From NCBI RefSeq assembly GCF_910592395.1, contig NC_088318.1:6100756-6164755 (forward strand): 64,000 nt of DNA, given 5' to 3'. The translations under genes were made by a program, and so were the position numbers. This DNA comes from Lineus longissimus (taxonomy: Eukaryota > Nemertea > Pilidiophora > Heteronemertea > Lineidae). The notes beneath the pieces are model-generated. The model saw nothing but the letters and a program-made list of their open reading frames with translations, was not told where the DNA came from and did not search any database. Shown here one piece after another: positions 11,491 to 58,038 of this stretch; the stretch's first letter is position 1; the number at the start of each line of letters is the position of its first letter.

Positions 11491-11724
11491 CATCAGTTTA
11501 ATAACAGTGTCTTCAAGAAACTGCACAGGTGCAAAGCTCAAGACTTCGAAATTACCTTAAGAAATATTGACTAGTTGGAATAAACCTTTCTGAGTTGTAG
11601 AAGTATATCAAGTTGCTTTCTCACGTTATATCATTATTATAGACAGACCCATACTATTGTGACATCGCGGAGAATAATCAATACGCCCATACTATTTTGA
11701 TATCGCAGATGACAAAGTGGAATC
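11491..11724 (+). repeat. Unit 4 upstream remnant
   Basis: Only the first ~230 bases of the upstream region remain. The sequence then joins the receptor coding region at the TM1 position. The join falls on GGAAT, which occurs both in the upstream region (AGTGTGGAATG in unit 1) and in the coding region (CTCGGAATC), indicating a microhomology deletion of about 750 bases that removed the promoter region and N-terminus. Confidence 0.7.
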
Positions 11725-33789: not shown

Positions 33790-33932
33790 TGTAGAATTCT
33801 TGGGTGAAAAGCAGAAAGACATGCTCTCGGTTTACATGCGTTTATTGGGAATATCTAAAATACCAACTCAAACATCTGAAACGATACAGAAACAGCACCT
33901 GGCCGGTTTAGTACAAACTAAACAACACTACA
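33790..33932 (-). repeat. 3' LTR of element C
   Basis: 143-bp LTR, the downstream one in the element's - strand orientation. Confidence 0.88.
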
Positions 33933-34192
33933 TCTCTCCCTTGTTTTAGAAGAGTTCTAACTCTGATAAAGTCCTTGAATAAATCTATGAATTAATTATT
34001 AACTAATCTCTCAGCAGGGATCCACAATACAAAACACAATTATTAGAAATACCGATATGATATAATACGTTTAACACAAGCAATACAAAAGATTGGAGTA
34101 TTTAACCACTGTCCAAAAAGTCCGCTATAGACTTGAATCGTCAACTACACAGTTCTATGGAGCCAGCATTTACAAGACTTAATTCTTTGAAT

Positions 34193-35446: not shown

Positions 35447-36045
35447 TAGTCAGGCTGAATTGACCACTGGATCTCTGATAAGACTTTAGAGCTTGCAGAT
35501 CTATCTGGTTGGACCACACCATGGGATTATCCACTAGGTACCATCTATTTGTCTGTGTCAATTCACATGCTGCTTTAAGGGTTGGGTCATCTTGGTAGGC
35601 ATTGATGACCTCTGGCCTCGTCATGGCTTTTGGAATGGCTTGACTTGCGATGAAGTTCACGTATTCCTCAGCTAGTCTTTCTTCTGAACTTGGCTTGACG
35701 GATGATGCTAAGGGATGACGTGACAAGTAATCGGCTGGATTCTCGCTTCCTTTCTGATACCGTATCTCTGGTGAGTAAGGTTGGAGTCGGAGATTCCACC
35801 GCTCTAAGCGCATCGAGAGTGAAGCCCTTAGTTTACCAAAGATTCCAAGTAATGGCTTATGGTCAGAATGTACAACCACTGGTTTCCCGTAAATGTAAAT
35901 ATGGAAATGTTCACACGCCCAGACAATTGCCAGCACTTCACGTTCCAACTGAGAGTATCGTTGTTCAGTTGGGGTCAATGACCGGCTACCATACGACACC
36001 GTTTTGATAACGTTGTTCTGGTCTCTTTGGACCAAAATACCACCT
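35364..36045 (-). pseudogene. RNase H part of element C pol
   Basis: Begins directly after the MITE (VQRDQNNVIKTVSYGSRSL), continues through LEREVLAIVWACEHFH and VVHSDHKPLLGIFGK to ADYLSRHP, typical of Ty3/Gypsy RNase H. It degrades the RNA strand of the RNA/DNA hybrid. The frame is lost shortly after NDGLLLD, before integrase. Confidence 0.82.
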
Positions 36046-36053
36046 ATGCCTAC

Positions 36054-36838
36054 GGTTTATGCCTGTTTCGCCTATTCCTGTTTCGCCTATTCCTGTTTCG
36101 CCTACAAAATTCCTGTTTCGCCTATTCCTGTTTCGCCTATTCCTGTTTCGCCTACTTTCCAGTACCCCTACAATAAATCGACTCTCCCACGGGGAACCTT
36201 AGGGATGCATGTCCATTTTATGGGGAAAATGTGAGGGGACAATTGGATGATGTTAACGATGTGATCACAATTTGACTAATCAAATGCCATCAACTTTGTT
36301 ATGCCATGACCGTTTTGAAAGAGTCACCTTGAAAGCGAGGACAGTCCGGGACTTATTTGACCATAGGACCATAGGACCATACTGACACACAGTAAAAACT
36401 AATAGATTAAGTAGAGTAAAGCAGTCGTTTATTTTATGAAAACTGAATTCATGAGTTTTTGATAAAAATACATAATATTGTACATTCTCATAATTATTTG
36501 ATCAAAATCAGCTGTAAAACCCATGTCATAATATACATGTAGGTACAGCACATATAAAGTCAAACAAGGTGGAAAATACATATCATGATATTATGTCAGA
36601 CAAGGTAACTGATGGCATCAACGTAACTCATTATGTCCCTCTCTCCATTGACGTATTGTTTCAATGCGTACATATGTGGCTCTCCTCGGGTTTGGTCGGT
36701 CAGTAAGGGACGGTTCATATTCCTACGTCTGTGGGGAGGTTAGCAATACATTTGAATAGACGAAACAGGAATTAGGCGAAACAGGAATAGGCGAAACAGG
36801 AATAGGCGGAACAGGAATAGGCGAAACAGGAATACACC
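36054..36838. mobile_element. MITE with 15-bp minisatellite-like inverted ends
   Basis: Inserted in pol of element C. ATGCCTAC flanks both sides (36046-36053 and 36839-36846), an 8-bp duplication. Both ends consist of several tandem copies of a 15-base unit (CCTGTTTCGCCTATT) in opposite orientation, starting GGTTTATGCCTG at one end and GGTGTATTCCTG at the other. The ~600-bp centre has no gene. The 8-bp duplication suggests hAT or Merlin type. Confidence 0.75.
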
Positions 36839-38496
36839 ATGCCTACAGGAGATGCATCAACAAATATTTCAGTATCTTTGTTGGTGTCAAAATACGCCAG
36901 AATGGGTTTCTTGGCTAGGCATTGTACCAGTTTTGTCATAGAATCTTGTTGTTCTTGACCCCACACGAAATCAACCTCTTTCCTAGTCAACTTTCTAATA
37001 GGAGCCGTCAGTGTTGAGTAACTGGGGATAAACCTTGAACTGTAATTCAACATGCCCAACAAACTGAGTACCTCTGGCACACTAGATGGTGGCGCCATCT
37101 TCATCAAGGCAACAATTTTACGGGAATCGGGCTGCATGCCGTCCTTTGAAAATTTCATACCGTAAAAGTGCAATTCAGGCACACTAAATAGACACTTTGG
37201 CAAATTGATGGTGAAACCATTTTCTAACAATGCCATCAAAACCTTGATCAAACCTTCGTCATGATCTTGTTGACCTTTACCACCTACGATTAGATCATCT
37301 GAGATATTCAAAACTTGCTTGATACCAGCAGTGGCTTCTTCTACAGCTTTCTGGAAAATTTCACTACAGCTAGTGATTCCGAAGCTAAGCCTTTTTGACC
37401 TGTACAGACCCAAGTGGGTCGCAAACGTCGTGATGTGACGCGATTCCTCATCTAATTCTAATTGTAGGTAGCCCTGACGAAGATCAATCTTAGAAAATAC
37501 CGTGCAGCCATTGAGATGTTCTGCAATGTCATCTACCGTGGGAGTAGGATGTCTCTCTCTAATTATAGCCTGGTTCGCTACCTTCATATCGACACATATG
37601 CGTACATCATCGGTGCTCTTTTTTGGAACAACAACAATTGAGGATACCCAAGTCGTAGGATGACCATCAGCTTTTTCATAGATGTCTGCATCTACCAGCC
37701 TTTTGAGCTCTTTTTCAACTTTCTTTCTAGTGTGAAATGGCAATCTACGATCTTGCTGAACAACTGGCTTGATTGACTCATCAATGTGAAGCTTGAAAGT
37801 CTTGCCCTTGAGTTTTCCGATACCCTGTGTTAGCTGGGGATTATCTTGGACAAATTTATCCGCCACTGACATGGAGGTCGTGGAGCAAACTGTATGGTCA
37901 GCAATGACTAAAAGACCAAGGGCTTGACTTGTTTTCACACTGAGAAGGCAACCTGATGAACCTGGGAGGACAAAAACCGTGTCCTCAATTTGATTACCAT
38001 TATGTGCGATTACACAAGAAAGTTTCCCTAGAGGCCTTATTGCCTCTCTAGCATAGGGGTTTATTTTCTGATTTGTGTCCGTTAATGGAAAGTTCTTGAG
38101 CAGAGCTGCGTAAGTTGCTTCATCCACGATATTGCACGTTGCTGCACTATCCGCTATCATTGAGAGTTCAATGTTATTTATTGACACTTTGAATTTAGGA
38201 GGTTTGTTTACAAAAGTTCCTTGATCCTCTAGGTGCGTAGCGAATAGGTTGTGATCGTCATCGGAATCAGAGTCGAACACGTTAGCTGCTGAAACTTTGT
38301 TGACTTGTGCTCGTCTAGAATTTTGCTTCCTTTTACCACCCCGAAAGCTTGGTTTTGGCTTCCCTTCCGTGCTGCTTTTGCACAGACTGGAGAAATGATT
38401 CTGCTTAAAACATTTACTACAGGTGGTGCCTCTAGCTGGACAGGAATCTGGCCCATTAGTATGTGGATATGGACCACCACAATTGTAGCACTTCAT
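36839..38496 (-). pseudogene. Nucleocapsid, protease and reverse transcriptase of element C
   Basis: The frame starts at ATG 38496 inside the gag stop (ATGA overlap). Two Cys-rich knuckles (CYNCGGPYPHTNGPDSC and CSKCFKQNHFSSLC) precede an aspartic protease with IADSAATCNIV. RT follows with RICVDMKVANQ, FSKIDLRQGYLQLEL and LSFGITSCSEIFQ; the catalytic motif is ISDDLIV instead of the usual Y-x-DD. It ends in the RNase H start (FVDASPVGM) where the MITE is inserted, after which a spurious tail (YSCFAYSC) comes from the minisatellite ends. Confidence 0.85.
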
Positions 38497-39116
38497 GTTT
38501 TTCGACTGTTGATAAAACTTCTGCTAAGTTTTCTGCGCGGAAACTGCTTTTGTGAAGGGGTAGGAACTAAGGATTTCTCAATTTCTACATTCTGTGCCCT
38601 AGTCAACTCGTTGTTACGAGCTTCAGACAAAACGTCAGTCAATGTCATGATTGTGCTCAATGCCTTTTTCCGGACCTTGGAATCCCTCATTGTTTTGATG
38701 AGTTGAGATTTGATCTCAGCGTTTTTGTCAGTAAAGTCGCATGTTTCTGGCATTTGTCGCAACCTGGTATGGTACTGATCCGTTGTTTCGGTTGCGGCTT
38801 GTTTTTGTGTGCGAAACTGGATCTTCTCGTACTCAACGTTAACCTTGGGTCTGAAATAGTCTTTCAGCTTGCGCCTTGCGGTCGCAAAGTCATCACCCGT
38901 TTCCGGAATTGTTTCGAATTCGTCAAAACTTCTTGGCCCTATCAGGTGGAGCAACATAGCTCTCTTGCGTGCGTCGTTTGTGACATTGATGGCACAGAGA
39001 TAGTTCTCCACCCTTTTGATCCACTTCTCCCATAGCGTTCCTGCATTTGATCGATCATCGCCGAGAATTTGGTCAAAAGTTTCCACCGTGGGAAGACCCC
39101 CGAGGTTAGACGCCAT
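38493..39116 (-). CDS. Gag of element C
   Basis: 207 residues, open from ATG 39116. It has the Ty3/Gypsy capsid pattern: TLWEKWIKRVENYLCAIN, RKRAMLLHLIGPRSF, LKDYFRPKVNVEYEKIQF and TDQYHTRLRQMPETCDF. It ends with a basic stretch (KQFPRRKLSRSFINSRKT). The stop overlaps the ATG of the next frame, so pol may be made by frameshift or reinitiation. It forms the particle shell around the element RNA. Confidence 0.8.
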   Translation of the reverse strand: MASNLGGLPTVETFDQILGDDRSNAGTLWEKWIKRVENYLCAINVTNDARKRAMLLHLIGPRSFDEFETIPETGDDFATARRKLKDYFRPKVNVEYEKIQFRTQKQAATETTDQYHTRLRQMPETCDFTDKNAEIKSQLIKTMRDSKVRKKALSTIMTLTDVLSEARNNELTRAQNVEIEKSLVPTPSQKQFPRRKLSRSFINSRKT

Positions 39117-39270
39117 CTTGTTTCGCGCGTTGACGAAAACTTCGAAACGGCTGTCCGTTTAACTCTCAAACTACGGTGCTTTCACGATTATTCACGACTA
39201 GTCAAGGTTACTTGACTGATCTATACAGTGCTAACTATATGCTGGATACTTAAAGAAAGACCGTTGCTTT

Positions 39271-39284
39271 ATCCTCGTCGCCAT
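39271..39284 (-). other. Primer binding site of element C
   Basis: Immediately inside the 5' LTR the - strand reads TGGCGACGAGGATAA. The first 13 bases are complementary to the 3' end of animal tRNA-Ser(GCU), including CCA. Confidence 0.65.
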
Positions 39285-39285
39285 T

Positions 39286-39429
39286 TGTAGAATTCTTGGG
39301 TGAAAAGCAGAAAGACGATGCTCTCGGTTTACATGCGTTTATTGGGAATATCTAAAATACCAACTCAAACATCTGAAACGATACAGAAACGGCACCTGGC
39401 CGGTTTAGTACAAACTAAACAACACTACA
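39286..39429 (-). repeat. 5' LTR of element C
   Basis: 144-bp LTR matching 33790-33932. It would carry the promoter for - strand transcription. Confidence 0.88.
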
Positions 39430-39661
39430 TATACCCCGTCGGCATTAATATGTGCACTTGTCCACCCTGTACAACAAAGAATAGGGCAATTGGATTGTAC
39501 TTCCTGTTAGTATAAAAGCGAGCTCTGCGTATGACGCGCTTCTGCACATGCGAAGCTAAAGATGGTCTGTCTTTACTTATACATGTCATGCTCCAGCCAA
39601 ATACATCTATTATGACATCTTGATATCCGTAAACAAATTACACCATGACCAGAAAATATCA
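39430..39661 (+). repeat. Unit 9 downstream region, last part
   Basis: Short-form 3' flank resuming after element C with CCCCGTCGGCATTAATATG, running to AAAATATCAT, where the LINE fragment starts. Confidence 0.65.
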
Positions 39662-41143: not shown

Positions 41144-41269
41144 TGTTATAGTATCCTGTATCATCTCATACATTATCCTTATACCTGTTGTACTGCACAT
41201 GCTTACCAATTATGATAGACAATAAAGTCACTTCATGTACAGGAGCCATAGAGTTATCATCTCTTTGCA
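41144..41269 (+). repeat. 5' LTR of element A
   Basis: 126-bp LTR. AATAAA in ACAATAAAGTCAC may serve as its polyadenylation signal. Confidence 0.88.
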
Positions 41270-41286
41270 TGGTGTCAGAAGTGGGT
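41270..41286 (+). other. Primer binding site of element A
   Basis: TGGTGTCAGAAGTGGGT directly abuts the LTR. It is complementary to the 3' end of a tRNA-Leu (acceptor stem GTCAGAA type, with CCA). Element B uses the same primer type. Confidence 0.7.
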
Positions 41287-41306
41287 TTTGAGTTCTAATT
41301 CTAATT

Positions 41307-42210
41307 ATGGAAGGCCTCAAAACGCCAAAACCGCTGCAAGTGGAATCGACAAATCTCGCTGAAACGTGGAGGAGGTGGAAGCAGCAATTCGATTGGTATG
41401 CCACTGCTTCAGGACTCAAAACGAAGGGAGAGGATCTTCAGTGCGCTACGTTATTGCACGCAATAGGCGAGGAGGCAGCTGAGATTTACGGGACCTTCGT
41501 ATTTACTGATGACCAGAAGGATAAAATCAAACCACTGGTAAAAAAGTTTGAGGACTATTTTACACCAAAAAAGAATCTAACAGGTAGAGCGACATAAGTT
41601 CAATTCAAAAACTCAGCAAGAAGGAGAGTCGTTCGATGTTTTTCTAACGGAACTTCGAACAAAGGCAAAGACATGTGAGTACGGGAATCTTACAGATTCG
41701 TTAATTAAAGACAGAATTGTGTTTGGTGTGAGGGATAATGGGCTTCGCGAACGTCTTCTCAGGGTAGCGGACTTGAGTCTCGTTAAATGTGTCGAAACCT
41801 GCAAAGCCGCAGAACTCTCGAAATCACAAGTCGCGGAACTAGCAGAGACAAAGAACGCGCCGGTGGGTGTAAGTGTCAATGCTGTTCGCGCCAAAGATGG
41901 TGCGGGTGCCAGGCCGTACCCTCACCAGAAGTCCCGGTACATGGATAATTGCAGAAACTGCGGTCGGTCCCATCCACCACGCCAATGCCGGGCATATGGC
42001 AAACGTTGTCGGGCATGTGGTAACATGAACCATTTTGCCGAGTTTTGCTTGAAATCAAAACGTGAGTTCAGAACCAGACAGCCGATCCACATGTTGGAGG
42101 TGGATGATGATAACGAATATCGTGACGTTACAGACGACTTGGAGGAGCTCTTTATAGACGCGGTAACCAACACGGGGGTTGGTGCAGATGAACTGTCTCC
42201 ATGGCAGATC
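41307..42210 (+). pseudogene. Gag and nucleocapsid of element A
   Basis: ATG at 41307 opens a capsid-like region (TWRRWKQQFDWYATASG, LLHAIGEEAAEIY, KPLVKKFEDYFTPKKN). One extra base near 41586 shifts the frame. The rest follows in another frame with FVFGVRDNGLRERLL-type sequence and two zinc knuckles (CRNCGRSHPPRQC and CRACGNMNHFAEFC, about 41950-42050). It packages element RNA in the intact family. This copy cannot give full-length Gag. Confidence 0.82.
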
Positions 42211-42594
42211 GCGCTGCCGCTCAGTCGTTCAAAATCCAAGGTCAGTTTCAAGATCGACAAGGGCGCGCAGGCCAATGTTATTCCGTACCACGTGTTTCGA
42301 AAGCTGAAGAAGGCGCCACCGCTCTCCAAGGCAACGGTAAAGCTATCGGCGTACGACGGTTCGAATATAGCTGTTCGGGGTAAATGTATCATGGATGTGG
42401 CTACAGAGGCAAAACGTATCCTTTTGAGTTCATAATAGCGAACGTAAAGTCTGAACCTATTCTAGGTGCGAGATCGAGCATGGATCTTGGACTACTGCAA
42501 CGCATCTTTAATATAAATGGACGTACGAAAACCGATCAGAACGCGAATATTCTTGACGAATACCCAGATCTCTTCGTTGGCGTGGGGTGTATAA
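42211..42594 (+). pseudogene. Protease of element A, cut by element B
   Basis: The retropepsin-type region VSFKIDKGAQANVIPYHVF has DKG where D-T/S-G is normal, so the active-site Thr/Ser is lost. A frame change near 42400 leads into FIIANVKSEPILGARSSMDLGL. Just before the RT the reading is interrupted at 42598 by element B. Confidence 0.78.
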
Positions 42595-42598
42595 AAGG
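42595..42598 (+). other. Target site duplication of element B (left)
   Basis: AAGG here and again at 48853-48856, flanking TGTGG...CTACA. The flanking pol reading frame of element A runs on in register on either side if one copy of the duplication is ignored. Confidence 0.82.
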
Positions 42599-42794
42599 TG
42601 TGGTAAATCGGCTTACCGTTATTAGTGAAATGGATGCTTTTATCCAGCGGTCTAGGCGATGATGCTGTGGTCGCGGTACTCGAGCTTCAAGAGGCCCGAA
42701 TGGGATCTCGGGCGTATGACGGCGTGGCTGTGACCCGTCTGGGTCGGTCGGAGATGACAATCATGATGTTTGGATTTGGTGGGCTCCTACTACA
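42599..42794 (-). repeat. 3' LTR of element B
   Basis: 196 bp, TGTGGTAAATCGG to CTCCTACTACA on the + strand; three substitutions against 48657-48852. Confidence 0.92.
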
Positions 42795-42809
42795 TCCTCC
42801 CCCTGCCTG
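42795..42809 (-). other. Polypurine tract of element B
   Basis: Directly next to the 3' LTR the - strand reads GGCAGGGGGAGGA, the expected site for plus-strand DNA priming. Confidence 0.65.
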
Positions 42810-43209
42810 AAAAGGAAGGCGTGTCCCCAGAGGAACCGACTGACAAGGCAAGCTAGAACTATGCCACTGGCGGTTACTGAGAACAGCGCTAATTAAATAA
42901 TTGAAAAGAACCGTAATTATACAAGGTAACGCCAAACTCAACTGGGTATTACTAGTATGCATGTGAAATATACAGAACAGTCATGGGAATAGATATAAAG
43001 ACACATGTAGGTTCATACCACATGTGGGAAGTGCAATCATATCATAGCACAACAAATGACAACTAATAAGCATAGTTAAAAAAAAAAATCGGCAGTGTAC
43101 ATACAGTTAACCAAAGCTTTAACTATCGGTCATAAAATGTCCTGAATAATAGAAGCTGATCACTATCACATTACTCAGGTTCACATATAATTACAAATAA
43201 TGAGGAATG
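42810..43209 (-). other. 3' untranslated stretch of element B
   Basis: About 400 bases between the TatD stop and the polypurine tract. A/T-rich, with an A-run at ~43078-43088. No coding potential is seen. Confidence 0.5.
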
Positions 43210-44028
43210 TTACAATTTGTAAAGGGCTTTCAGATTGAGGGCGTTGCAGGACAGTATAACTTCTGGCAGCAGGCACAGGATACGGCTGAGAACTGGAAGC
43301 ACCAATGAGCAGCTTTCCCAAGGCGTGGTGACTGAATGAGGTAGATAGGGGGCATCACTCTCGATAACAAGCCGGGAAATTGGCATAACTCGGATGGCCT
43401 CCTGCAACTGAATGTCACTGCACAGTAAGCTGGAAATGCCAAAATACACGTTAGGGCATTGTGACCAAGCGGTAACATCCTCCTGCCTCCCAGTAAAGCA
43501 ATGCAAGTGAATAGGGACATGGGTAAGTCTCAGCTCTTGAATGAGCACCAGCGTAGAGGTTAAAGCTGAACCATCTCCAGAATCACGGCAGTGGACGACC
43601 AGGGATTTGTTGAAGTAGTCAGCGAGTGGGAGAATTGACCGTAAATAATTTTCTTGACTTTGTCTTTTGTTCTCAAGATGACAGCAGGATGATCCTCGGC
43701 AGAGACGGCAAAACCCATAGTCAAAACCAATCTCGCCAATGGCAACACACTTGGGATGTTGTAGGTAGGAGACGAATGAGCGATTCCCCTGCTCCCTTAC
43801 AAAATGTGGGTGAATTCCGATGGTGAAGCTAAATCTCGTTTCTACAAGTTCTGGTATTCTGCTCCAATGATCAGGGTAAACAAAGTTAGTGATTCCTCTT
43901 ATGAATTGAAAATGAGTTTGATTCTCTGCCTCGAGTTGGGTAAATGACCTTTTGGCACGATCCACCAAAGTTTCAACATGGAAATGTCCATCCCAGAGGG
44001 CTCTTTGGAGATGGCCTGATATCCACAA
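43210..44028 (-). CDS. TatD-family metallonuclease domain of element B
   Basis: A 272-codon uninterrupted domain in the env-like position. TatD signature residues are all present: D13-x-H15-x-H17 (WDGHFHVET), GIHPHF at 71-76, E99 in GEIGFDY, H146 in LVVHCRDSG, H176 in IHLHCFTG and D225 in VIESDAPYL. TatD enzymes are TIM-barrel, metal-dependent DNA/RNA nucleases. Length (~260) is as usual for the family; a Cys-rich insertion follows GFDYG (CRLCRGSSCC). The upstream part of the gene (zinc finger and spacer) is in other frames because of small indels, so this M is probably internal. It may be closer to animal TATDN2-type than to bacterial TatD, which needs a search. Confidence 0.87.
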   Translation of the reverse strand: MWISGHLQRALWDGHFHVETLVDRAKRSFTQLEAENQTHFQFIRGITNFVYPDHWSRIPELVETRFSFTIGIHPHFVREQGNRSFVSYLQHPKCVAIGEIGFDYGFCRLCRGSSCCHLENKRQSQENYLRSILPLADYFNKSLVVHCRDSGDGSALTSTLVLIQELRLTHVPIHLHCFTGRQEDVTAWSQCPNVYFGISSLLCSDIQLQEAIRVMPISRLVIESDAPYLPHSVTTPWESCSLVLPVLSRILCLLPEVILSCNALNLKALYKL

Positions 44029-44564
44029 AATGGGCGCGTTGCTCCGGGGAGAGATTTAATAGGAGATTGTAGAGCGTCCTCCAGTGAAAAATAGCAACAA
44101 TAACATTGGGAACATGGGGACGTGGAATTATAAGTTCTCCCGATATCTGATACGCTGCTGCCAGTAGGTAGGTGTCTTCCTTCGAGTCGAACTGCGCATT
44201 CGGTTCTGCCGTAAACAACTGATGGTATAGTACGTATTGCAGTAGGTCGTCGTCTGACTGTAGCTTAAGAGTTTCCACGAAGAACTCCAAAATGACAACT
44301 AAAAGGTGTACCCAGTCCTTAAAATCTTGATCACTCGGGAACGGACAGTGAGGGTGCCGAAGAGAATGGAATACACGCACTGGTCTCCTGCACTTGGCAA
44401 GTTGTACACGCAGTTGAAATTTGCAGGAGCCAAGAGCAGTGTTCATGAAGGACATGACGATTTAACTTTGTTCCAATTCTTTGGTCGCACAATCCACACA
44501 AACGAGAGTGTGTCTTTCTTTTTCTTGCTTGGTCCTGGTATTCTTTTGGTCTGCCTTCAGCCAT
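43973..44564 (-). pseudogene. Zinc-finger N-terminal part of the TatD gene
   Basis: ATG at 44564 lies 4 bases after a splice acceptor (TACTGATTGCAG, AG at 44570-44569). The protein begins MAEGRPKEYQDQARKRKTHS, then a C2H2-like finger (LCGLCDQRIGTKLNRHVLHEH). After HCSWLLQ the frame changes near 44430 and continues as a helical spacer (FKDWVHLLVVILEFF, EDTYLLAAAYQIS, LYNLLLNLSPEQRAHFVDI), which must shift again near 44010 to join the TatD domain. Two indels therefore disable the full protein in this copy. The architecture is zinc finger, spacer, TatD. Confidence 0.65.
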
Positions 44565-44568
44565 GTTG

Positions 44569-44582
44569 CTGCAATCAGTAAA
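44569..44582 (-). promoter_or_regulatory. Candidate splice acceptor for the TatD gene
   Basis: The - strand reads TTTACTGATTGCAG followed by CAACATGGC. TACTGAT resembles a branch point very near the AG, and ATG follows after 4 bases. This fits expression of the last gene from a spliced subgenomic RNA, as retroviral env is. The donor was not identified. Confidence 0.45.
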
Positions 44583-44612
44583 TAATAAAAGATCATAACA
44601 CCAACCAATTAT

Positions 44613-44810
44613 CATTATTTACAGTACAAGACAAAGTTAATGAGAGGTTAAAGCTGTAACTATTAACCACACAATTGCTAACACTTTCAGTGACTGAAGC
44701 TTTCACTATCAATCATCCCCAAAGATCGAATTAACATTATTTACAGTACAAGACAAAGTTAATGAGAGGTTAAAGCTTAGCTATTAACCACACAATTGCT
44801 AACACTTTCA
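44613..44810. repeat. Duplicated ~77-bp block where pol is missing
   Basis: 44613-44689 and 44735-44810 are nearly identical direct repeats (CATTATTTACAGTACAAG to AACACTTTCA) with a period of about 121 bases. They sit exactly between the protease remnant and the TatD gene, where RT-RNase H-IN would be expected. Confidence 0.8.
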
Positions 44811-45055
44811 AATGTGTTTTGCCTTGCAATGGAGGTGGCTTTTCCAATGAGTCATAGAAATCTTGGCTCATCACTGTAACCTGTGCTGCTGTGTCCACCA
44901 CCGCTGACACTGTCTGTCCTAATATTTCACACTTTACTGTCAGATTGGTACTGGTAGTCTGACCGGATACTTTTGAAACTTGGAAAGTTGAGGAGGGTGT
45001 TTTAATGCTTTCTTCTGTTGTTGTTGCTTTCTTGGTGTCAGCCTCATCTTCTTCG
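44811..45055 (-). pseudogene. Retropepsin-like protease of element B
   Basis: After a one-base slip in the A7 run at 45059-45065, the - strand encodes SGQTTSTNLTVKCEILGQ, then VSAVVDTAAQVTVM, an aspartic protease active site (D-T-A, hydrophobic flanks), then SQDFYDSLEKPPPLQGK. It ends abruptly after ~75 residues in the duplicated block, so the second half of the protease (flap end, ILG motif) is missing. It would normally cleave the Gag polyprotein. Confidence 0.7.
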
Positions 45056-45990
45056 TTCTTTTTTTACCTGGGAGGACTCCTCTCCTTTGTCTACATTGCC
45101 TTCAGCTACATTTGTGTTATGTTTTGATTCTCCGGATGAACTGCCTGGATTGGTTGCATCAAACACCCCCCTACAGCTTAAAGTTTCAGCGACACACCCC
45201 GGTGCTAGGGTTGGAGAAGTATTTGATGTCGATTGCTTTGGCTTCAGAGGTGTAGAAAGATTGAAGCCCTGACTACTAGTATCCTTCCTGTCTTCCTCTA
45301 TGGACTGGTTAGTAATAGGTAAGCAGTCGGCTATAACCGACACATTCCTACTATTACTCACAACGTCGATGGGACTGGGACAGTCAGCTGTCACTAACAC
45401 CTTTCCCAAATCGCCATTGCCTGTATCCTGATTTGCACAGTGAAGTGGCTTCTGATAGGAAGTTTCTTTGATATCTGTAACTGAAGACGCAGCACCCTTG
45501 ATTTGTGGTAGCTTCATAACCGTGATTTGTATTGCCGTGTCTTCGAAGACATCATGTAAGATTTGTACGACCTTTGGCCACTGTAAACCATCTAATCCAC
45601 AGCCAATCTTCGGAATAGACAAGGCCGTGTAACCATTCTTGAGAAGATGCTTTTTCATCGCTACAAGGCTTTCACGCAGGTCTGCATAACATGGTTTTTG
45701 CCAGTGGGCCTGTTTTGTGACCAAGTAATAGACGGGACGCTGCTCCCGATAAAGAACTCCTATTTGGCCTACTGCGACTTGCTGGGCTAATAATTCCTTT
45801 ACTCCGTTGTATCTGGATTTAAATCTTGATGCAATTCCGGCACCCATGGCAAAATCCGCACTAACGCAGTGAGCCAACGGTTCTGTTTTTTGGCTAAAGA
45901 GGTCTCCAATTTTTTCTGTGATAGTGAACTGTTCATTTCGGCCTTCCATTTTGACTTGGGCAGGAACACGGCCGACCTGTTCTGCCCCTC
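45044..45990 (-). CDS. TARG1/OARD1-like macrodomain of element B
   Basis: The frame opens in the -1 register at the gag stop and runs 301 codons past M (45949). Residues 8-150 from that M form a macrodomain of the TARG1/OARD1 class: DLFSQKTEPLAHCVSADFAMGAGIASRF, then VYYLVTKQAHWQKPCY and LSIPKIGCGLDGLQW. K79 and D120 sit 41 residues apart, as do the catalytic Lys84 and Asp125 of human TARG1, which removes ADP-ribose from glutamate. A ~140-residue Ser/Thr/Pro-rich linker follows and leads into the protease after an A7 run. It would be made as a Gag-macrodomain-protease fusion. The domain has no interruption. No RT is attached. Confidence 0.88.
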
Positions 45991-46000
45991 CTAGTTTAAC
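45991..46000 (-). promoter_or_regulatory. Candidate -1 ribosomal frameshift site
   Basis: The gag frame ends TTA AAC TAG. The heptamer GTTAAAC (46000-45994) has the spacing of an X-XXY-YYZ slip site, and GUUAAAC is a known functional -1 site in arteriviruses. Slipping back one base at this point enters exactly the macrodomain frame. No downstream pseudoknot was modelled. Confidence 0.55.
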
Positions 46001-48112
46001 GTAGACTTAGATGAGTCAGCCAACTTGTTAGGTTTACGCTGACTTTTTGTTGGACAATCTTTTGAGAAGTGGCCATCTTGGCCACATGAGTAACAGGCGC
46101 CAGATACTCCCCGGGGCTGTGTGGGGGCAACTGATTTGGGGGCGCTACTTGCTGAGGTGGGTTCTAAGCGCTTCAGAGTTTTAAGTAGTTCCACCATAAG
46201 TTCCTGGGTTGTTGAAGAGCCCCCCCTGACTTGGTCTAGGGTTGGTCGGACTAAAACGATCCTGTCTGACGTTTGCACTCCGCCAATTATTGGGCCCCAG
46301 TGGGCGTCGTATTTGGCGTATCTCACCAAACTCATCCTCCTCCCACTCACACTCTTCATCATCGTCCGGAAATGCTAGTCGCCTTGCTGACGCTGTTGGT
46401 CGTATAGATCCATATAAAACTTTCTGATTGGCACTAGTCAGCTTCATTAGCTTTAGGGCTTCATGGATGGTCCGTGGGTTTTTATCCATGACTACTTCTG
46501 CCGCCCGCTTCTCTCGGGTCCCCTTGAGGAATACTTCGATAGCAATCTCGTCAATTGTTCTTTGACGCGCTCCAGGGTGAGCATCAAGGGTAAGAAAGTG
46601 TACCCTCTGTGAAAATTCCTCCAAGCTCTCATCCTCCTTCTGTTTTGCTGCATGGACCTTCCGTCTAGCTGCTGGTGGAGCATCCTTAATCTCGAAACGC
46701 TGTTTGAGTTGATGCTTCAAGGGCTTATACTCCTTGAGATGAAGCTTAATGGCATATTCCAATGCTTTCTTGGCTAGGCAATCCATCAACCTGCTGGCTT
46801 TCTTGGTCTTTCCCCATTTTCTACGATCAGCAATACGCTCAAATTGAAAGATAAATGGCTCCCATGCCTCTTTAGAGTCGCCTGAAAATATTGGCATCTT
46901 TGGCAATGGTGGTGTCCTGCTTCGCTGCCTGCGACCTTTATGCTTCCTCCTGGCTCGGCGACCATACTGTTCTCTCCGTTCATCCTCAGACGATTCAGAA
47001 TTTGTTTCCTCTGATGTGTCTTCTGTACTTTCCTCAGATGATGATGACTCATAAGACACAGTATGTGTCTTCTTGGACCCTTGGGTTGTAGGCTCGTCCT
47101 GCACTGCTGATGACATTTTCTTCGTGCCACTGGTCGTTGGTTGGTCACGACGAGTCAGTTCATTTGGCTGAGGTCCAGCTTGCTTCCTGTCTTGTTTCTC
47201 CGGTTTTTTGTCCCCAATACCTGCTGCTTGATTTCCACCTGCTACTTTCACGCTGGACGGCTTCTCGACCCCATGTACACAGAGTCTGTTGGATAAACAT
47301 TCGACAGCTTCTTTACCAATGAAAATTCACCATCAGTCCTTTTCTCGTCACTTGGTGGTATACTGGAACTTGCATCCGGGGCTTGAGAAGCCTTCTTTTC
47401 ACCTGGCCTGTCTGACCGCGGTAAACTCGAAAACATGGTTGATGGTTGAGAGGCCATCTTCTCACTTGACAAGGGGGGGGGTTCAAAACACCACACGTCT
47501 CCTCTCTGGGTCGACTAGAAAATATGGGGGGTGGTTGACAAGCCATCTTCTCACGTGATGGCGAGGAGTACATAAAACTACTAGCCTCCTCCCGGGGCCT
47601 ACTGTATGACATCGCCATCGGATCTCTCGAGCATAACATGCCGACTATTTGATCGACTGACTCCTGCAACTTCGCTACCTCATGCTGTATCTTATATTGA
47701 AATTCTCCAATTCGTTGATCGTTCTGGTTGGCGATGTTAGAAATTTCCCGCAAACGGTGATCAACTGTACACTGTAGCTGTGCAACGTCATGTTGGACTG
47801 TATTCTGGACTTTACTGATAAGCTGCTTGTTCTGGCTGGCTAAGTTTGACAGTTCCCGCAATCCCTCTGCCATTGCCAACTGCTCTTCTGCGGGGGTTGC
47901 GCCATCTTGGCGGGGGGGTTGAAAAGCGAAAATGCCTTTTGCCGTCAGTTCCTGACAATCTTTAAGGGGTACGTTAGTACCCGCAGCTAATTCTTCCGGC
48001 GAGTGAAGCCAACCTTTTTCTCTTAAGTCCTTGATACTTTGAGCACGCCCCCCCCCCCCCCTATGCCATTGATCTGTTGCAATGCCTCAATTGATACCGT
48101 ATTTGGATTCAT
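45991..48112 (-). pseudogene. Gag of element B
   Basis: ATG at 48112 (MNPNTVSIEALQQINGI). The frame breaks in a G-run at ~48048-48061, then gives SIKDLREKGWLHSPEELAAG and a coiled-coil region (ELSNLASQNKQLISKVQ, IANQNDQRIGEFQYKI). Another slip lies in the C9 run at ~47471-47480 and a third near 47290. The capsid-like core (47251-46181) has EAWEPFIFQFERIADRRKW, LKHQLKQRFEIKDAPP, ESLEEFSQRVHFLTLDAHPG and REKRAAEVVMDKNPRTI. After a slip near 46200, a CCHC knuckle (CYSCGQDGHFSKDC) and a basic tail reach the stop at 45991. Most lesions are in homopolymers, so some could be sequencing errors. Confidence 0.78.
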
Positions 48113-48641
48113 GATACAGAAGTCTGAATTGGTACCGGAATATATATTTACAGATAATGACACTGAGATAACAGAATGAAAACTAACAATCAGAAATCAC
48201 ATGTGCAATTAAAATTTTCTCACTGACATATATAGCTAATTAAGGCTGTAGGCCCTACAGTATTATAGCAAAACAGTGACAGAGCCCAAATTGCTGCGAT
48301 TAAAAAACTGACACACACACTACCAGCCACAAGGGCACAACTGTATAAGCGAGGCTGATCAAATACAAATAAACAAATCATAGAGTGCACAACTTGCGCT
48401 CGGAAATCACTGCACACTAACAGTATCGGCAATAGAAAACACTGATGTACATGTATGCAGAATACACTACAATAATATACGCACGGACACTGTCCCGTAG
48501 CACTGTAACTCACACATTTATTTACTGACACACAGAAATCTGAACCGGGGACCTCCGGAAAAAGAAAGCTGAATTTCTGCTAAACTGCTCTAGTCACGAG
48601 TCGCTCCTGCGGTCACAGCCTCTAGGGAACGCAGAATATTT
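48113..48641 (-). other. Leader of element B
   Basis: About 530 bases between primer site and gag ATG with no long open frame. It probably contains the packaging signal and, if the TatD gene is spliced, the donor. Confidence 0.45.
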
Positions 48642-48655
48642 CACTTCTGACACCA
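48642..48655 (-). other. Primer binding site of element B
   Basis: One base inside the 5' LTR the - strand reads TGGTGTCAGAAGTG, complementary to the 3' end of the same tRNA-Leu type used by element A. Confidence 0.7.
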
Positions 48656-48656
48656 A

Positions 48657-48852
48657 TGTGGTAAATCGGCTTACCGTTATTAGTGAAATGGATGCTTTCA
48701 TCCAGCGGTCTAGGCGATGATGCTGTGGTCGCGGTATTCGAGCTTCAATAGGCCCGAATGGGATCTCGGGCGTATGACGGCGTGGCTGTGACCCGTCTGG
48801 GTCGGTCGGAGATGACAATCATGATGTTTGGATTTGGTGGGCTCCTACTACA
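48657..48852 (-). repeat. 5' LTR of element B
   Basis: 196-bp LTR, three substitutions from the other copy. AAGG follows at 48853-48856. Confidence 0.92.
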
Positions 48853-48856
48853 AAGG

Positions 48857-49956
48857 CGTCACACACAAGATCATATTAAACGAGGATGCTAAGCTGGTAA
48901 TTCATCCAGCCAGACGCACTCCGGAAGCGATAAAACCTAGGCTCAAAGACACGCTGGACAAGATGGTAAACAACGGTATTGTTGCGTATGTGGACGAGCC
49001 GACCGATTGGGTTAACAACATAGTAGTCATAGAAAAGTCAGATGCCTCGCTGAGGGTCTGTTTAGATCCAAAGGAGCTGAATGCAGCCATTAAACGTGAA
49101 CACTATCCACTACCGACAGTGGATGACATAAGCGCTAAGTTAGCAGGTGCAAAATACTTCAGTGTCCTGGATGCATCGTCTTCTTTCTGGCAGATTAAGT
49201 TGGACGAAGACAGTTCGAATCTTGTGACATTCAATACATGCTTTGCAGATATCGCTTTAAGAGATTACCTTTCGGAGTAGCTTCGGCAAGCGAAGTGTTC
49301 CAGAAAGTGCTTGCTCAGGTACTGGATCGTCTTGAACAAACTCCATTGATGACATGATCGTGTACGCCGACACGAAAGCTGAGCACGATAGAAGATTACG
49401 TCTAGTGCTAGACAGACTACGCGAATATGGCATCCGGTTATATCGCGCAAAGTGCAAAATTTGCATTATGCAAGTCAAATACGTAGGGGTGATCTTCACA
49501 GGTGATGGGATAAAAATTGACCCCCAGAAAGTTGACGCTATTACAGCAATGCCAACTCCGCACGATAAGCCAGCTCTGATGCGCTTTCTGGGCATGGTAA
49601 CTTTCTTTGCAAAATTCACACCGGATATAAGCGCCATTACTGCTCCATTACGCCAGCTACTGCAGAAGGACATCGAGTGGCGCTGGGATCAGAGGCATGA
49701 CAGTGCCATTGAGACATTGAAAACAAAACTGACAAAATCACCTGTCTTGGCGTATTTTGATCATACAAAGCCGATTGTGGTCACCGCCGATGCCAGTAAA
49801 GATGGCTTAGGGGCAGCTATCTTACAATCAGGCCATCCGATAGCATTTGAATCAAGAGCACTCACTTCAGCAGAACAGAATTATGCCCAGATAGAGAAAG
49901 AAACACTTGCAATCACGTATGCGTGCGAACGTTTTCATCAGTATCTGTTTGCATAG
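48857..49956 (+). pseudogene. Reverse transcriptase and start of RNase H of element A
   Basis: RT resumes right after element B (THKIILNEDAKLVIHPARR, SLRVCLDPKELNAAIKREHYP, YFSVLDASSSFWQIKLDE). Frame changes between 49240 and 49354 break the fingers/palm; the IDDMIVYA catalytic box is readable at about 49345-49365. The rest is open to 49953: LYRAKCKICIMQVKYVG, FLGMVTFFAKFTPDIS, then RNase H (VVTADASKDGLGAAIL, NYAQIEKETLAITYACERF), ending in a TAG. It copies element RNA into DNA in live relatives. Confidence 0.85.
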
Positions 49957-51405
49957 CCGGAATTCTTGATTCAGTCAGATCACAAACCCCTCGAGGCGAT
50001 AGTGAACAAGCCGATGCACAAAGCCCCACCCAGGATACAACGATTCCTGCTGAGGCTTCAGAAGTACCGTTTCAAGTTAGTACACGTTCCGGGAAAAGAA
50101 ATGTATGTGTCAGATGCATTATCTCGAGCTAACCTGCCAGGACAAACGAACAGTGACATGGAGAAAGAGGTTGATCTGCAAGTTCATTTTGTTGGTGAAA
50201 ACCTGGCAATCTCTCCTGAAAAGCGCAAACAATTTCAGGCAGCCACCTCGAATGACGTGGTATTGCTCAAACTAATAGACTATGTCAACAATGGCTGGCC
50301 AAAATATCATCACGATCTCGATTCCGAACTGCGTCCGTACTAGCATGACAAGGAGGAATTTTACATCGTGGATAACATTATCTTAAAAGGCGCGCGCATT
50401 ACTGTACCGAAATCTATGCAAAGTGAAATGGTTGAACTGGTGCATGACAGTCATCTTGGACGTGAACTCTGTAGCCGCAGGGCAAAGGAAATTCTATTCT
50501 GGCCAGGTATGATAGCGCAAATTGAGGACAAAGTTGCAAAGTGTGCAGTGTGTCAGAAATACCCACGAAAAAACCGTAAGGGGCCGCGCATGCCACATGA
50601 AACGCCAACACGTCCGTGGCAAAATGTTTCCACTGATTTATTTTTCTTCCATTGCAAGGATCACCTGCTTGTCGTCGATGCCTTCTCCGGATATTTCGAA
50701 GTGGAAATGCTTGAGAATACTTCTGCAAATACCGTGATCTAACACATTAAAAGAATATTTGCGAGACATGGTATCCCAGAAACGCTCCTATCTGACAATG
50801 GCCCACAATACAGCAACCGGAATTTCAAGGCATTCGCCGAAAAATGGAACTTCACGCATAAAACGTCCAGTCCGAGGTATCCGAGGTCAAACGGGTTAGC
50901 CGAACGAACTGTTCAAACTGTCAAAAATCTCCTCAAGAAAGCTAAGGCGAACGGTAAAGACCCGTACTTGGCTCTACTTGCGTATCGCGACTCACCACGT
51001 GATGGTTTACCATCACCTGCTCAATTGTTGTTCAGAAGAAAGCTTAGGACACAGTTGCCAATCACAGCAGCAGCTTTAAATCCTAAAATTCCAAGTGCTG
51101 GCGAAACCCGACAAAAGCTAATTGAACGACAGAACGCTGCTAAACATTATCATGACGCGCACGCTAGCAATTCCGAGCTCACCACACTGACGCCTGGTGA
51201 GAGTATCCGTATTGAGAATCATCAAGTGAAGGACTGGTTACCAGGAGAAGTGGTCTCCACAACCCAATATCCGCGGTCGTACAATGTTCGTACACAAAGT
51301 GGCACGACACTGAGGAGGAATCGTTCCCACTTAATGAAAATCCCACAGGACAGTGAGAGGGAGGTAACCAATCACAGTCTTGAGGACACTGGAACAATCC
51401 GATAA
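49957..51405 (+). pseudogene. RNase H end and integrase of element A
   Basis: Continues with QSDHKPLEAIVNKPMHK to YVSDALSRA (RNase H end), a TAG at 50341, then integrase: HHCC region ELVHDSHLGREL to CAVCQKYP, catalytic D in STDLFFFHC, a TAA at 50740, the second D in LLSDNGPQYS, E in SNGLAERTVQTV, and a C-terminal part to 51405. Three in-frame stops show decay. Confidence 0.85.
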
Positions 51406-51891
51406 TCAACCTGGTGATGCTAATGTTACTTAAATGGTTCAGCCTAATGACTCTGTAGTGATTACTAGGTCTGGTCGGGTCTCTAGACCCAACCCGATGT
51501 ACAATGACTTTGTTGAAGAATATGGACTTCGATTCTCTTTTGGGTTTCGATATTGCAACTTATAATCATGTAAACACATTAGCACTTTCTAATTTTGTAT
51601 TCCAGCTCAGGTCAGACACGTCAGATAAGCTTCCAGACATAACATTAGTGCTAATTAATATTCATTCATCATTATTATACTGGTTCAGGACCACGATATC
51701 TGATTCGTTGAGGACTATTTGGAAATGACTTCTGTAGACACTGGTTACCATTGGCAACCGCAACTATTTTATATTAGCATTCTCGTTTGTTGTTTTTGAC
51801 TGAATTACTTAACCCATGTTTCATTTGCACTCTTTATTAATTGCTTTATTTTGATACTAACATAATGTTAGTTGAGGCTGGGAAAGGGGAA
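51406..51891 (+). other. 3' region and polypurine tract of element A
   Basis: Non-coding apart from a short unrelated frame at 51504-51728. It ends in GGCTGGGAAAGGGGAA just before the 3' LTR. Confidence 0.6.
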
Positions 51892-52021
51892 TGTTATAGT
51901 ATCCTGTATCATCTCATACACTATCCTTATATGTACCTGTTGCACTGCTCATGCTTACCAATTATGATAGACAATAAAGTCACTTAATGTACAGGAGCCA
52001 TAGAGTTATCATCTCTTTACA
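51892..52021 (+). repeat. 3' LTR of element A
   Basis: 130-bp LTR matching 41144-41269, with an extra TGTA. Confidence 0.88.
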
Positions 52022-52853
52022 CACAGGTGCAAAGCTCAAGAAATCGGTAAATCTGACTTAGGAGAGTTAGTCTGAAACTTTTCGATGTAGTATTGTCTGG
52101 AAAATCAGTTTAACGACAGTGTCTTCAAGAAAATGCACAGGTGCAAAGCTCAAGACTTCGAAATTATGTTAAGAATTATAGATAAGCTAGAGTAAACCTT
52201 TCTGAATTGTAGAAGTATATCAAGTAGCTTTCTTTCGTTATACGATTATAATAGACAGACCCATACTATTGTGACATCGCGGATAATGATCAATACGCCA
52301 ATACTATTTTGATATCGCAGATGAAAAAGTGGCGAAAGTTGAAATGATTTGTGAGGCCAATATAGTTCATTTGAAAATAGATCCAAGCTATGAGGATAAA
52401 GGACTTAAACTAGTGGGAAGTGCTGTAGAGACCACACGCACGTTGTCGCTCGATGCATTTCAACATGATCAAAAGGGACTGAAACTGGGTGACTGACATG
52501 GAGTTTTGTCTTGGTAATCGTGACGTCACGTCAGTGGCCTTAGTGTCGATTTCTTCATAATCAAAATAGCAGTCGTAAATCAGTCAACCTGAAGTATATC
52601 AAACAAGTAGCTAATGACTCAGTGAGTAATCTAACTCTGCTAATGCTCTGCACTTGGATGAGGAGTACCAGTATTCTATTTTCATATATAAATGTATGTT
52701 GAAAGCTAATCGAATCGCTGTTGAATGTGTGGAAGGCTTGTTTGAGGAGGCTATGGAACTACGGGGCCCACATTCGCAGTGTAAGTATGTCTGCTAAAAT
52801 ATTCGAATGTCTGGATATCATATCTGAAATAGTTCATGGTGAATGCAATCAAT
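52022..52853 (+). repeat. Unit 10 upstream region, second piece
   Basis: After CACAGGTGCAAAGCTCAAG the sequence jumps back to the unit start (AATCGGTAAATCTGACTTAG), so two partial unit starts are joined here. TGACGTCA (52521-52528) and TGACTCA (52615-52621) are both intact. Confidence 0.65.
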
Positions 52854-53877
52854 ATGAACACGGCTCACATACTCGTTACCCAAGATCTCTGGACGTCTAG
52901 GGACCGACCGTCATCAGAGCAACCGCTTCTACTCAACCAGCAGCTCCTCGAAATCGTACAAGCCTACGTCATGACCGTCGTTCTTCTACTCGGAATCTCT
53001 GGTAACGCGTTGTCCTTTGTGATATTCTTCCGAGTGAGAAAGTGGGCGGACGCCTGCGTCCAGTACCTTAGTTGTCTATCTGTCTCCGACACTGGAGTCA
53101 TTCTTATTCTTGGGGTGCGAGATTGGTTCGCATTTGGTCTAAACCACATCACAAATGGAGCTTACGTATTCAACTTAATCCTGTACAATAACGCAACATG
53201 TAAATTTGTGATCGGAGTTTGGCATGTTTTTGAAGTAATATCGGGTTGGATAATTGTAGCCTTTTCGACAGAAAGAGCTTACGTCGTGTGGTTTCCTCTA
53301 AAACGCGCGAATATCACTCCGAAAATACGTAAAAACGTATTATTGATGATATCTTTTAGTGACGTGTTTTAAGCACCCCAGATTTTGGCTGGCGGAGATC
53401 ATTCCAGGTACACCTGAAATTTGTTTCTATAACACGAACCCAATTATTGTTTCTACGATCCTGAACCAGATCGATATCACTTTATATGCTTATGCACCTT
53501 TCATCTTGATATTTTTTGCGAATGTGTCCATCGTTCTTGCGATTTCTCTCTCAAGTACTAAACATCTGGGAGGAAATCGTGAGAAAAAACGGCAGGATGG
53601 GAGACTGTTGGTGTCTTTAATGTCTGTTTCGACCGTTCATATAGTCCTTTTTTTGCCTTCCGCAGCAGTTTTTACTTACATCGCGGAAGCCAAGGAGAAT
53701 GGAGACGAGCAATCACAGTTCTTGTGGTTTTTGATGAAATCCCTCGATCTCGTAAGTGTTCTTAACTACTGCTTCAATTTCATTATCTATGGGTGTACGC
53801 TGCCCTTTTATCGCCAAGAAATCAAAAAGATGTTTTCAACTCAAATAAGAAATAGCAATGGGCGTATTTTCAAGTGA
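52854..53877 (+). pseudogene. GPCR copy 10, single-frameshift pseudogene
   Basis: The conserved ATG is at 52854; an additional in-frame ATG at 52836 arises where other copies have GTG. It is open through TM4, then one base is missing near 53370 (GACGTGTTTTAAGC), giving an immediate stop. TM4 to the C-terminus continue open in the next frame (53377-53877) with loop 2 Cys, TM6 and NFIIY. Apart from that base it is well preserved, so it may be a recent pseudogene or a polymorphic allele. TM3 is the most diverged of all copies (IGVWHVFEVISG). Confidence 0.85.
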
Positions 53878-57589: not shown

Positions 57590-58038
57590 ATGAACACGGC
57601 TCACCTACTAGTTACTCAAGATCTCTTGACGAGTAGCGACCGGCCGTCATCAGAGCAACCGCTTCTACTCAACCAGCAGCTCCTCGACCTCGTGCAAGCC
57701 TATGTCATGACCGTCGTTCTTCTACTAGAGTTTCTCCTAAATCCCGACAGTTCACAGCCCTCGAAAGTTCCTTTGTATCAGGCCTTGCTACGGGACAATG
57801 CCAATTCATAGATCATGAAATAGGCATTCATTTTGTGGAGACCATATTGTCCAAGCTATTAATGAGGGTTATTGAATAGTGCTGTCATGCCCTTTTTGTC
57901 TGACCTCATCCCAGTATAAATTACGCGCATGCTGTTGGGCCTGTCCCTCTCCTGGGAAACTTAACCTGGGAATTACGAAACCAGTTCCACCTCTACCTTG
58001 GTCAGCCATAGAATTTGACTCGCCGTTCCGTACTGAAC

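Follow-up and report, generated by a model that had tools for sequence, protein, structure and literature searches.

Organization of the element

The sequence analysed here, hereafter the window, is a stretch of 64,000 nucleotides from the nemertean Lineus longissimus (NC_088318.1; C11:6100756-6164755 of the 391,118,348 bases in 30 contigs that were searched as the genome). On its minus strand, at 42599-48852 and nested inside a plus-strand Gypsy element, lies a long terminal repeat (LTR) element, called copy 1 or the window copy, which encodes both a macrodomain and a TatD nuclease domain (Table 1). An original prediction, made from the letters of the window, had described paired 196-bp LTRs with an AAGG duplication, a primer-binding site (PBS) and a polypurine tract (PPT), together with a Gag bearing a CCHC knuckle, a macrodomain, half a protease (PR) and a TatD domain on one strand, and this description is borne out. 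The LTRs differ by 3 mismatches, TTGGTGTCAGAAGTG stands after the 5' LTR, and the PBS, TGGTGTCAGAAGTG, is one that we take to be of the tRNA-Leu type. No tRNA genes were found within the window, where the same 14-base site occurs once more, at 41270-41283 in the outer Gypsy element.

The knuckle is matched by Pfam zf-CCHC at 1.9e-7, the macrodomain by human TARG1 at 2.7e-41, the half protease by Pfam at 1.8e-5 (under the model's cut-off) and the TatD domain by Pfam at 1.6e-34. The predicted lack of reverse transcriptase (RT), RNase H and integrase (IN) in this copy also held: none was found in its frames in the open reading frame (ORF) list or with Pfam, and the pol of a second copy, described below, aligns to it only as far as mid-protease. 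Such RT and integrase ORFs as the window does contain are parts of other Gypsy elements, one of them the plus-strand host of the insertion. Further features are a tandem duplication at 44607-44810 and the spread of Gag and of the TatD gene over several frames each, and the TatD domain forms the end of a longer ORF with zinc-finger-like and helical parts. The Gag gives a weak match to Pfam PNMA (0.012), and its structure prediction without an alignment was uninformative (predicted local distance difference test, pLDDT, 45). By eye, the Gag start (MNPNTVSIEALQQINGIG..., window ~48050-48110, minus strand) is helix-hairpin-helix-like.

A second copy holds the pol that the window copy lacks

A genome search with the LTR, whose counts are lower bounds, returned at least five places, namely both LTRs of the window copy, both LTRs of a second copy on C5 (copy 2), and one fragment whose flank repeats the flank of the C5 copy. 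The LTRs of copy 2 (13850690-13850885 and 13873036-13873231) differ at 2 of 196 positions, TTAC is duplicated on both sides, and a PBS and a PPT are also present. Read on the minus strand, its order is Gag, macrodomain, PR-RT-RNase H-IN, zinc-finger part, helical part and TatD, so that macrodomain and TatD follow one another as they do in the window copy, with protease through integrase in a single open 1421-codon frame (Pfam: protease 1.7e-7, RVT_1 4.4e-29, rve 1.9e-13). The Gag part at 47326-46184 of the window copy is 95-96% identical to that of copy 2. Copy 2 is itself broken: its macrodomain linker is interrupted by ~1.35 kb that contain a THAP-domain ORF (L008, 2200-3555), and its TatD by ~11 kb.

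In the window copy the protease is followed at once by the beginning of the ORF3 region; ~3.95 kb of pol are skipped relative to copy 2, 122 bases are then duplicated, and copy 2 reads TGAAAG, a six-base repeat, on both sides of the skipped stretch. The loss of pol looks like the outcome of template switching during reverse transcription. Splicing was rejected as the source of the gap, because the protease side of the junction in copy 2 has no GT start and the GT-AG pattern does not fit. Since copy 2 holds a full pol at the same place, the window copy lacks RT through a deletion of its own and is, judged by its sequence, derived by loss of pol from a Ty3/Gypsy-type LTR element that is otherwise autonomous. 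This element has TG..CA LTRs and a short target duplication, a PBS and a PPT and, as copy 2 shows, a pol that runs PR-RT-RNase H-IN.

The original prediction had taken the lack of RT for a property of the element, had proposed a non-autonomous family, and had pol borrowed in trans; it had also named RT in other copies as speaking against it, and copy 2 holds PR-RT-RNase H-integrase between macrodomain and TatD. A normally pol-less LTR family that carries the two domains and is mobilised in trans would agree with the presence of LTRs, target-site duplication, PBS and PPT where RT is absent, and with the 14-nt PBS that the surrounding Gypsy element shares with the window copy. This account is nevertheless very improbable, as the sole other full copy found has its complete pol between protease and TatD, the LTR places found, a lower bound, amount to two copies and one fragment, and the pol-less state was seen once only, at a microhomology junction. 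No group of copies sharing a pol-less state was found (one of the two full copies is pol-less), and borrowing in trans draws no support from the copies found, at least two full ones and a fragment, of which a single one lacks pol; the deletion may date to, or after, the sole insertion.

The macrodomain and its slot at the start of Pol

With human TARG1/OARD1 (C6orf130) the macrodomain of copy 1 shares 75 of 138 residues, and its best match outside TARG1/OARD1 chains is at 2.8e-7. The Pfam macrodomain match is at 0.0014, under the cut-off, and that of the DarG model at 1.6e-15, far under its cut-off; a protein database search with the macrodomain ORF of the window gave one match, a Pseudolycoriella OARD1. 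K84 and D125 of TARG1, of which D125 is presumably the second catalytic residue, have their counterparts in K98 and D139 of the window ORF (human numbering assigned by hand), and the GCGLD motif is kept. K84A is a described catalytic mutant of TARG1 (PMC8501950). By these matches the domain is of the TARG1 class.

Six places were found in the genome with the TARG1-type domain: copy 1, copy 2 (in two pieces), a locus on C14 (L033), and two exons on C5 that form a candidate cellular OARD1 gene (C5:2355274-2355910). The macrodomain of copy 1 is identical to this host candidate at 76 of 136 residues and to that of L033 at 60 of 133. Being about equally near to the host gene and to human TARG1, it points to a capture that is old rather than recent; there may have been a single TARG1-type capture or two separate ones. 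L033 is interrupted by another element, and its order is gag (44-67% identity by segment), macrodomain (44%), protease (43-45%), RT (52%), RNase H and a partial integrase.

A macrodomain of another class occupies the same slot in a locus on C15 (L051; Pfam 1.5e-33, human MACROD1 5.5e-51), whose kinship with the element lies in Gag (47%), protease (38-39%) and the RT region (46-56%). Four further gag loci (L053-L056) were read in their downstream stretches, and two of these, L053 on C1 and L054 on C13, have a MacroD1-type domain between Gag and protease, with 54% and 50-61% identity, respectively, to that of L051. The NAAN and GGGGVDG motifs are present in the macrodomains of L051 and L053. Six related loci therefore carry a macrodomain at the start of Pol, TARG1-type in copies 1 and 2 and L033 and MacroD1-type in L051, L053 and L054, among the nine related gag loci that were followed downstream. 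L051 also contains, at 4351-5001, an insertion with an ORF resembling a DDE-type transposase by eye.

A rival view, in which both domains entered a single copy later, as nested insertions or by transduction of host genes, could point to the cellular relatives of both and to the two-exon OARD1 candidate in this genome. To this we give hardly any credence: the two domains stand at the same places in copy 2, which has its own target-site duplication, and each recurs in divergent relatives, and an identity of 76/136 to the host gene as against 75/138 to human TARG1 makes the capture not recent. Nested insertion of either domain was rejected on their shared positions in copy 2, and the claim that both are part of an LTR retroelement stands.

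A candidate -1 frameshift signal

The heptamer GUUAAAC occurs once on the minus strand of copy 1, in the Gag phase, and the macrodomain follows in the -1 frame. The stem predicted 6 nt downstream of it has a folding energy of -15.1 kcal/mol for 36 nt, ranking 7th among 6218 windows, and a z value of -2.11 for 45 nt. GUUAAAC is a listed slippery site of equine arteritis virus, with a spacer of 5 (PMC3835772), and the slippery-heptamer pattern used here was widened to include it.

Five of the six macrodomain loci (copies 1 and 2, L033, L051 and L053) have GUUAAAC in the Gag phase at the overlap of Gag and macrodomain, and the heptamer is kept while the coding parts compared are at ~38-67% identity (copies 1 and 2 excepted). 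In L033 the stem is of unrelated sequence (z -1.88, fold rank 207/3401), and the folds rank 35/4961 in L051 and 10/2961 in L053. By minimum free energy the stem starts at 6 nt in copies 1 and 2, L033 and L051 (2 nt in the 60-nt fold of L051) and at 3 nt in L053. We regard GUUAAAC with these stems as good evidence for programmed -1 frameshifting, which is predicted for this lineage.

An ORF3 that ends in a TatD nuclease

The structure model of the TatD domain (mean pLDDT 76, from an alignment of 7) matches TatD enzymes (2gzx, E 5.6e-14; TATDN3, 2.7e-12), and the D-x-H-F-H, E, H, H, D metal site is invariant, together with a C-x-C-x3-C insert, in a 16-row alignment at 25-41% identity. By predicted fold and metal site, the end of ORF3 is a TatD nuclease and a predicted enzyme. 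Database searches returned 7 matches for the TatD ORF of the window and 223 for the ORF3 protein of L011; 13 of the latter, taken from among the 120 listed, were put into alignment A3. The matches listed include relatives with the same N-terminal parts (such as P0009, 37% over 91%) and more distant ones from Saccostrea and a sea urchin. Viral contigs scanned with macrodomain, TatD, Gag and helical-part queries gave no relative, and a scan of viral contigs with the TatD alignment gave six loci at 24-31% identity.

A genome search with TatD found 22 places. The order zinc-finger-like part, helical part and TatD is present in copies 1 and 2, L011, L012, L013, L014, L015 and L016/L018, at some of which the helical stretch passes the threshold only in part, and the same order was read from the ORFs of L022, L023, L025 and L026. 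Eight loci of divergent families have the TatD of ORF3 on the strand of pol and <3 kb behind it (Table 1). The genome searches with integrase and with Gag scored 66 of 1922 and 108 of 272 candidates, respectively, and the genome counts given here are lower bounds. At 13 integrase places (>=53% identity, >350 bits), TatD is found downstream on the same strand within 3 kb in 4 and within 13 kb in 6, and a seventh place, C14:10662101 (L044), has only the zinc-finger and helical parts downstream.

In four of five distinct leaders the ORF3 ATG has a pyrimidine tract and a YAG within 6 nt upstream, at >=0.73 pyrimidine, a value that is reached with an acceptor-like site by 60 of 2473 ATGs in the window. 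In-frame ATGs without an acceptor-like site stand further upstream in L012 and L016. The acceptor-like sites, with the donor-like ACG/GTAAGC in the LTR, suggest that ORF3 is expressed from a spliced RNA, as env is. ORF3 consists of zinc finger and TatD and was not recognised as a fusion glycoprotein, no transmembrane search having been made.

Several further TatD proteins were noticed. P0027 and P0031, proteins of large contigs in which TatD is fused to CCHC knuckles, might be Gag-derived genes. In Lineus, L020 (C5), L021 (C12) and L029 (C3) form a separate repeated TatD group with a shared upstream ORF; in L021 and L029 TatD follows a CCCH-like stretch (by eye), and the group is perhaps another TatD-bearing mobile element. 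A figure legend on the squid Hox cluster has a TATDN2 annotation among transposon-like genes (PMC6962438), and the TATDN2 annotation in the giant squid genome is possibly an ORF3 of the zinc finger-TatD kind.

Proposed layout, expression and function

We consider it likely that the window copy is a pol-deleted copy of a Gypsy-type element with a macrodomain-Pol made by a -1 shift and a spliced zinc finger-TatD ORF3. What can be read directly from the DNA is how copy 2 is laid out, where the deletion joins, and that relatives repeat both the macrodomain slot and ORF3. The complete element would run LTR - gag - (-1 shift) - macrodomain-PR-RT-RNase H-IN - ORF3 (zinc finger-helical part-TatD) - LTR. 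Ribosomes would translate Gag, and a minority would slip by -1 at GUUAAAC to give Gag-Macro-Pol, by which an ADP-ribosyl-hydrolase could be packed with the polymerase in the particle at a low ratio; ORF3, in the position of env, would be produced separately from spliced RNA.

A number of observations count against this picture. As to the shift, the stem of copy 1 is only the second among 392 slippery-type heptamers in the window, one other having a better 36-nt fold, and its z value is only -1.11 for a 61-nt fold; L054 has no GUUAAAC in 3601 bases, and in L053 a stop codon interrupts the -1 frame shortly past the heptamer, which marks that copy as dead. As to the macrodomain, that of L033 is without the segment carrying the second catalytic residue of TARG1 and the frame of that of L054 is broken; no macrodomain precedes the protease in the more distant L052 (Gag ~34%) or in L055, whose protease differs by eye, and L056 has neither a macrodomain nor a protease match within 2.8 kb. 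As to ORF3, the remaining 6 of the 13 integrase places have no TatD match, among them the MacroD1-type L051, L053 and L054; copies 1 and 2 have the weakest acceptor of the five leaders (pyrimidine 0.60), and L025, a member of one of the four passing leaders, reaches 0.67. Macrodomain and TatD were seen together only in copies 1 and 2; L033 is broken off at its 3' end, and the loci on C6, C17 and C4 were read without their 5' parts. The differences between copies 1 and 2 (synonymous/nonsynonymous: gag1 0/10, gag2 3/14, macrodomain 1/8, helical part 4/8, TatD 6/14) give no sign of purifying selection, as expected of dead copies, and lend a function no support.

Macrodomains are best known as tools with which RNA viruses counter PARPs. 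The presence of two hydrolase-class macrodomains in one slot points to a function tied to ADP-ribose, which may be evasion of defence, repair of ends or mere binding. While reverse transcription proceeds, the packed hydrolase could strip the marks of host ADP-ribosyltransferases from Gag and Pol or from nucleic-acid ends; the TatD enzyme could trim DNA or RNA ends or clear competing nucleic acid. Tentatively, and with less than even confidence, we propose that a Gypsy-type lineage makes an ADP-ribosyl-hydrolase within Gag-Pol by the GUUAAAC shift, with two macrodomain classes in one slot, because retrotransposition constantly requires that marks set by host PARPs or ADP-ribosyltransferases be removed from the particle or the nascent cDNA, and that one branch adds the spliced TatD ORF3.

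The macrodomain could instead be a module for binding ADP-ribose or poly-ADP-ribose or for assembly, or a tuner of Gag-Pol geometry, rather than an anti-defence hydrolase. Shared binding would explain two classes in one slot as well as shared catalysis does, and the L033 domain has lost one catalytic segment; the K84 position of TARG1 and the GCGLD motif are, however, kept in copy 1, NAAN and GGGGVDG are present in L051 and L053, and reversal of mono-ADP-ribosylation is the enzymatic activity described for MACROD1, MACROD2 and TARG1 alike (PMC7237415). A binding or assembly role is in our view possible, and somewhat doubtful. For ORF3, the alternative is that TatD acts on the nucleic acids of the element itself, by trimming of 3' ends or flaps, or is a passenger shared among retroelements. 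In the bdelloid Juno/Vesta elements the residues of the ORF3 DEDDy exonuclease are reported as mostly intact, with no significant departure from neutrality (PMC5408684), and copies 1 and 2 look neutral as well, but a passenger would hardly be expected to keep the metal-site residues and a C-x-C-x3-C insert unchanged in all 16 aligned sequences, which are at 25-41% identity, and we regard this alternative as unlikely.

Hydrolase-class macrodomains of two classes, in one Pol slot of LTR elements and behind one heptamer, would make ADP-ribosylation a candidate animal defence against retrotransposons, open to a direct test that turns on a single catalytic residue of a single domain. The TatD ORF3, present in several divergent families and probably spliced in the manner of env, would be a second nuclease ORF3 next to the DEDDy nuclease of bdelloids.

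Relation to known elements

The element shares with Ty3/Gypsy (Metaviridae) its LTRs, PBS, PPT, CCHC Gag and, in copy 2, PR-RT-RNase H-IN, and differs in the macrodomain with which Pol begins and in the zinc finger-TatD ORF3 behind IN. Macro-domain ORFs are also described from epsilon-like endogenous retroviruses of teleosts (Basta et al. 2009, as cited in PMC4977317), which are likewise LTR retroelements with an acquired macrodomain; there it forms an additional ORF, whereas in the Lineus elements, which are Gypsy-type, it is the first domain of Pol, comes in two classes and is accompanied by TatD. Bdelloid Juno/Vesta, in which ORF3 is reported to be a DEDDy nuclease or a GDSL esterase (PMC5408684), likewise have an extra enzymatic nuclease ORF3, whereas that of Lineus is of the TatD superfamily, with zinc-finger and helical N-terminal parts, and goes with a macrodomain in Pol. 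The planarian giant Gypsy Burro also has a Pol with extra domains, reported as dUTPase, BCL2 and env homology; its paper makes no mention of a macrodomain or of TatD (0 occurrences; PMC6431247).

Among cellular proteins, human TARG1/OARD1 and bacterial DarG share the macrodomain class of copy 1, there as free enzymes and here within a retroelement Pol, and human MACROD1 represents the class of the L051 macrodomain, which here fills the corresponding Pol slot in related elements. The TatD/TATDN nucleases share fold and metal site with ORF3, which adds the C-x-C-x3-C insert and the zinc finger-helical N-terminus. Among the papers listed in searches of an open-access collection, none describes in its title or abstract opening an LTR retrotransposon with such a macrodomain or TatD. 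Neither a macrodomain-first Gypsy Pol, in two classes, nor a TatD ORF3 was met in these searches, the only precedent met being the fish retroviruses with macro domains.

Table 1. Features of the window copy, loci with TatD closely behind pol, and receptor-like ORFs (window positions unless a contig is named)
Feature	Position	Strand	Remarks
5' LTR, 196 bp	48657..48852	-	TG...CA ends; holds ACG/GTAAGC, possible splice donor
3' LTR, 196 bp	42599..42794	-	3 mismatches to 5' LTR
Target-site duplication AAGG, left	42595..42598	unstranded	
Target-site duplication AAGG, right	48853..48856	unstranded	
Primer-binding site	48642..48655	-	14 bases
Polypurine tract	42795..42807	-	GGCAGGGGGAGGA, directly before 3' LTR
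Gag, split over several frames	46184..48086	-	48086-47316, 47326-46184, then knuckle frame
Gag end with CCHC knuckle	45994..46374	-	Pfam zf-CCHC
GUUAAAC slippery heptamer (candidate)	45994..46000	-	Gag phase, directly before Gag UAG
Stem-loop (predicted)	45958..45987	-	6 nt downstream of heptamer
Pol start: TARG1/OARD1-type macrodomain and linker	45047..46006	-	ORF of 320 codons; macrodomain at ORF residues 28-165
Aspartic protease, N-terminal half	44773..45063	-	DTAAQ; ended by the pol deletion
Deletion junction with tandem duplication	44607..44810	-	122-bp period
ORF3 first part	43976..44564	-	zinc-finger-like MAEGRP... start and helical part, frameshifted
ORF3 last part: TatD nuclease domain	43213..44055	-	HxH, E, H, H, D
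Copy 2	C5		TatD <3 kb behind pol
L011	C6		TatD <3 kb behind pol; IN 53%
L012	C17:1492823		TatD <3 kb behind pol; IN 57%
L013	C4		TatD <3 kb behind pol; RT region 62%, no integrase seen
Locus on C15	C15:641102		TatD <3 kb behind pol
Locus on C10	C10:11077498		TatD <3 kb behind pol
L027	C9		TatD reduced to a remnant, <3 kb behind pol; IN 51-53%
L052	C15:3114092		TatD <3 kb behind pol
Receptor-like ORFs	1079-2110, 6871-7890, 10021-11058, 11713-12606, 13970-14995, 22227-22865, 28682-29728, 52833-53877, 61474-62400		

Surroundings of the element

The outer plus-strand Gypsy element around the window copy extends over 41182-52021, with 88-nt LTR stretches that are 95% alike and the same 14-nt PBS. 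The minus strand holds a further Gypsy element at 33821-39437, with a weakly PNMA-like Gag, RT, RNase H and integrase. The retroelements sit within a tandem array of very similar ORFs that by eye resemble seven-helix receptors (Table 1), and a fragment of an HTH_Tnp_4/DDE_Tnp_4 transposase lies at 58012-58740.

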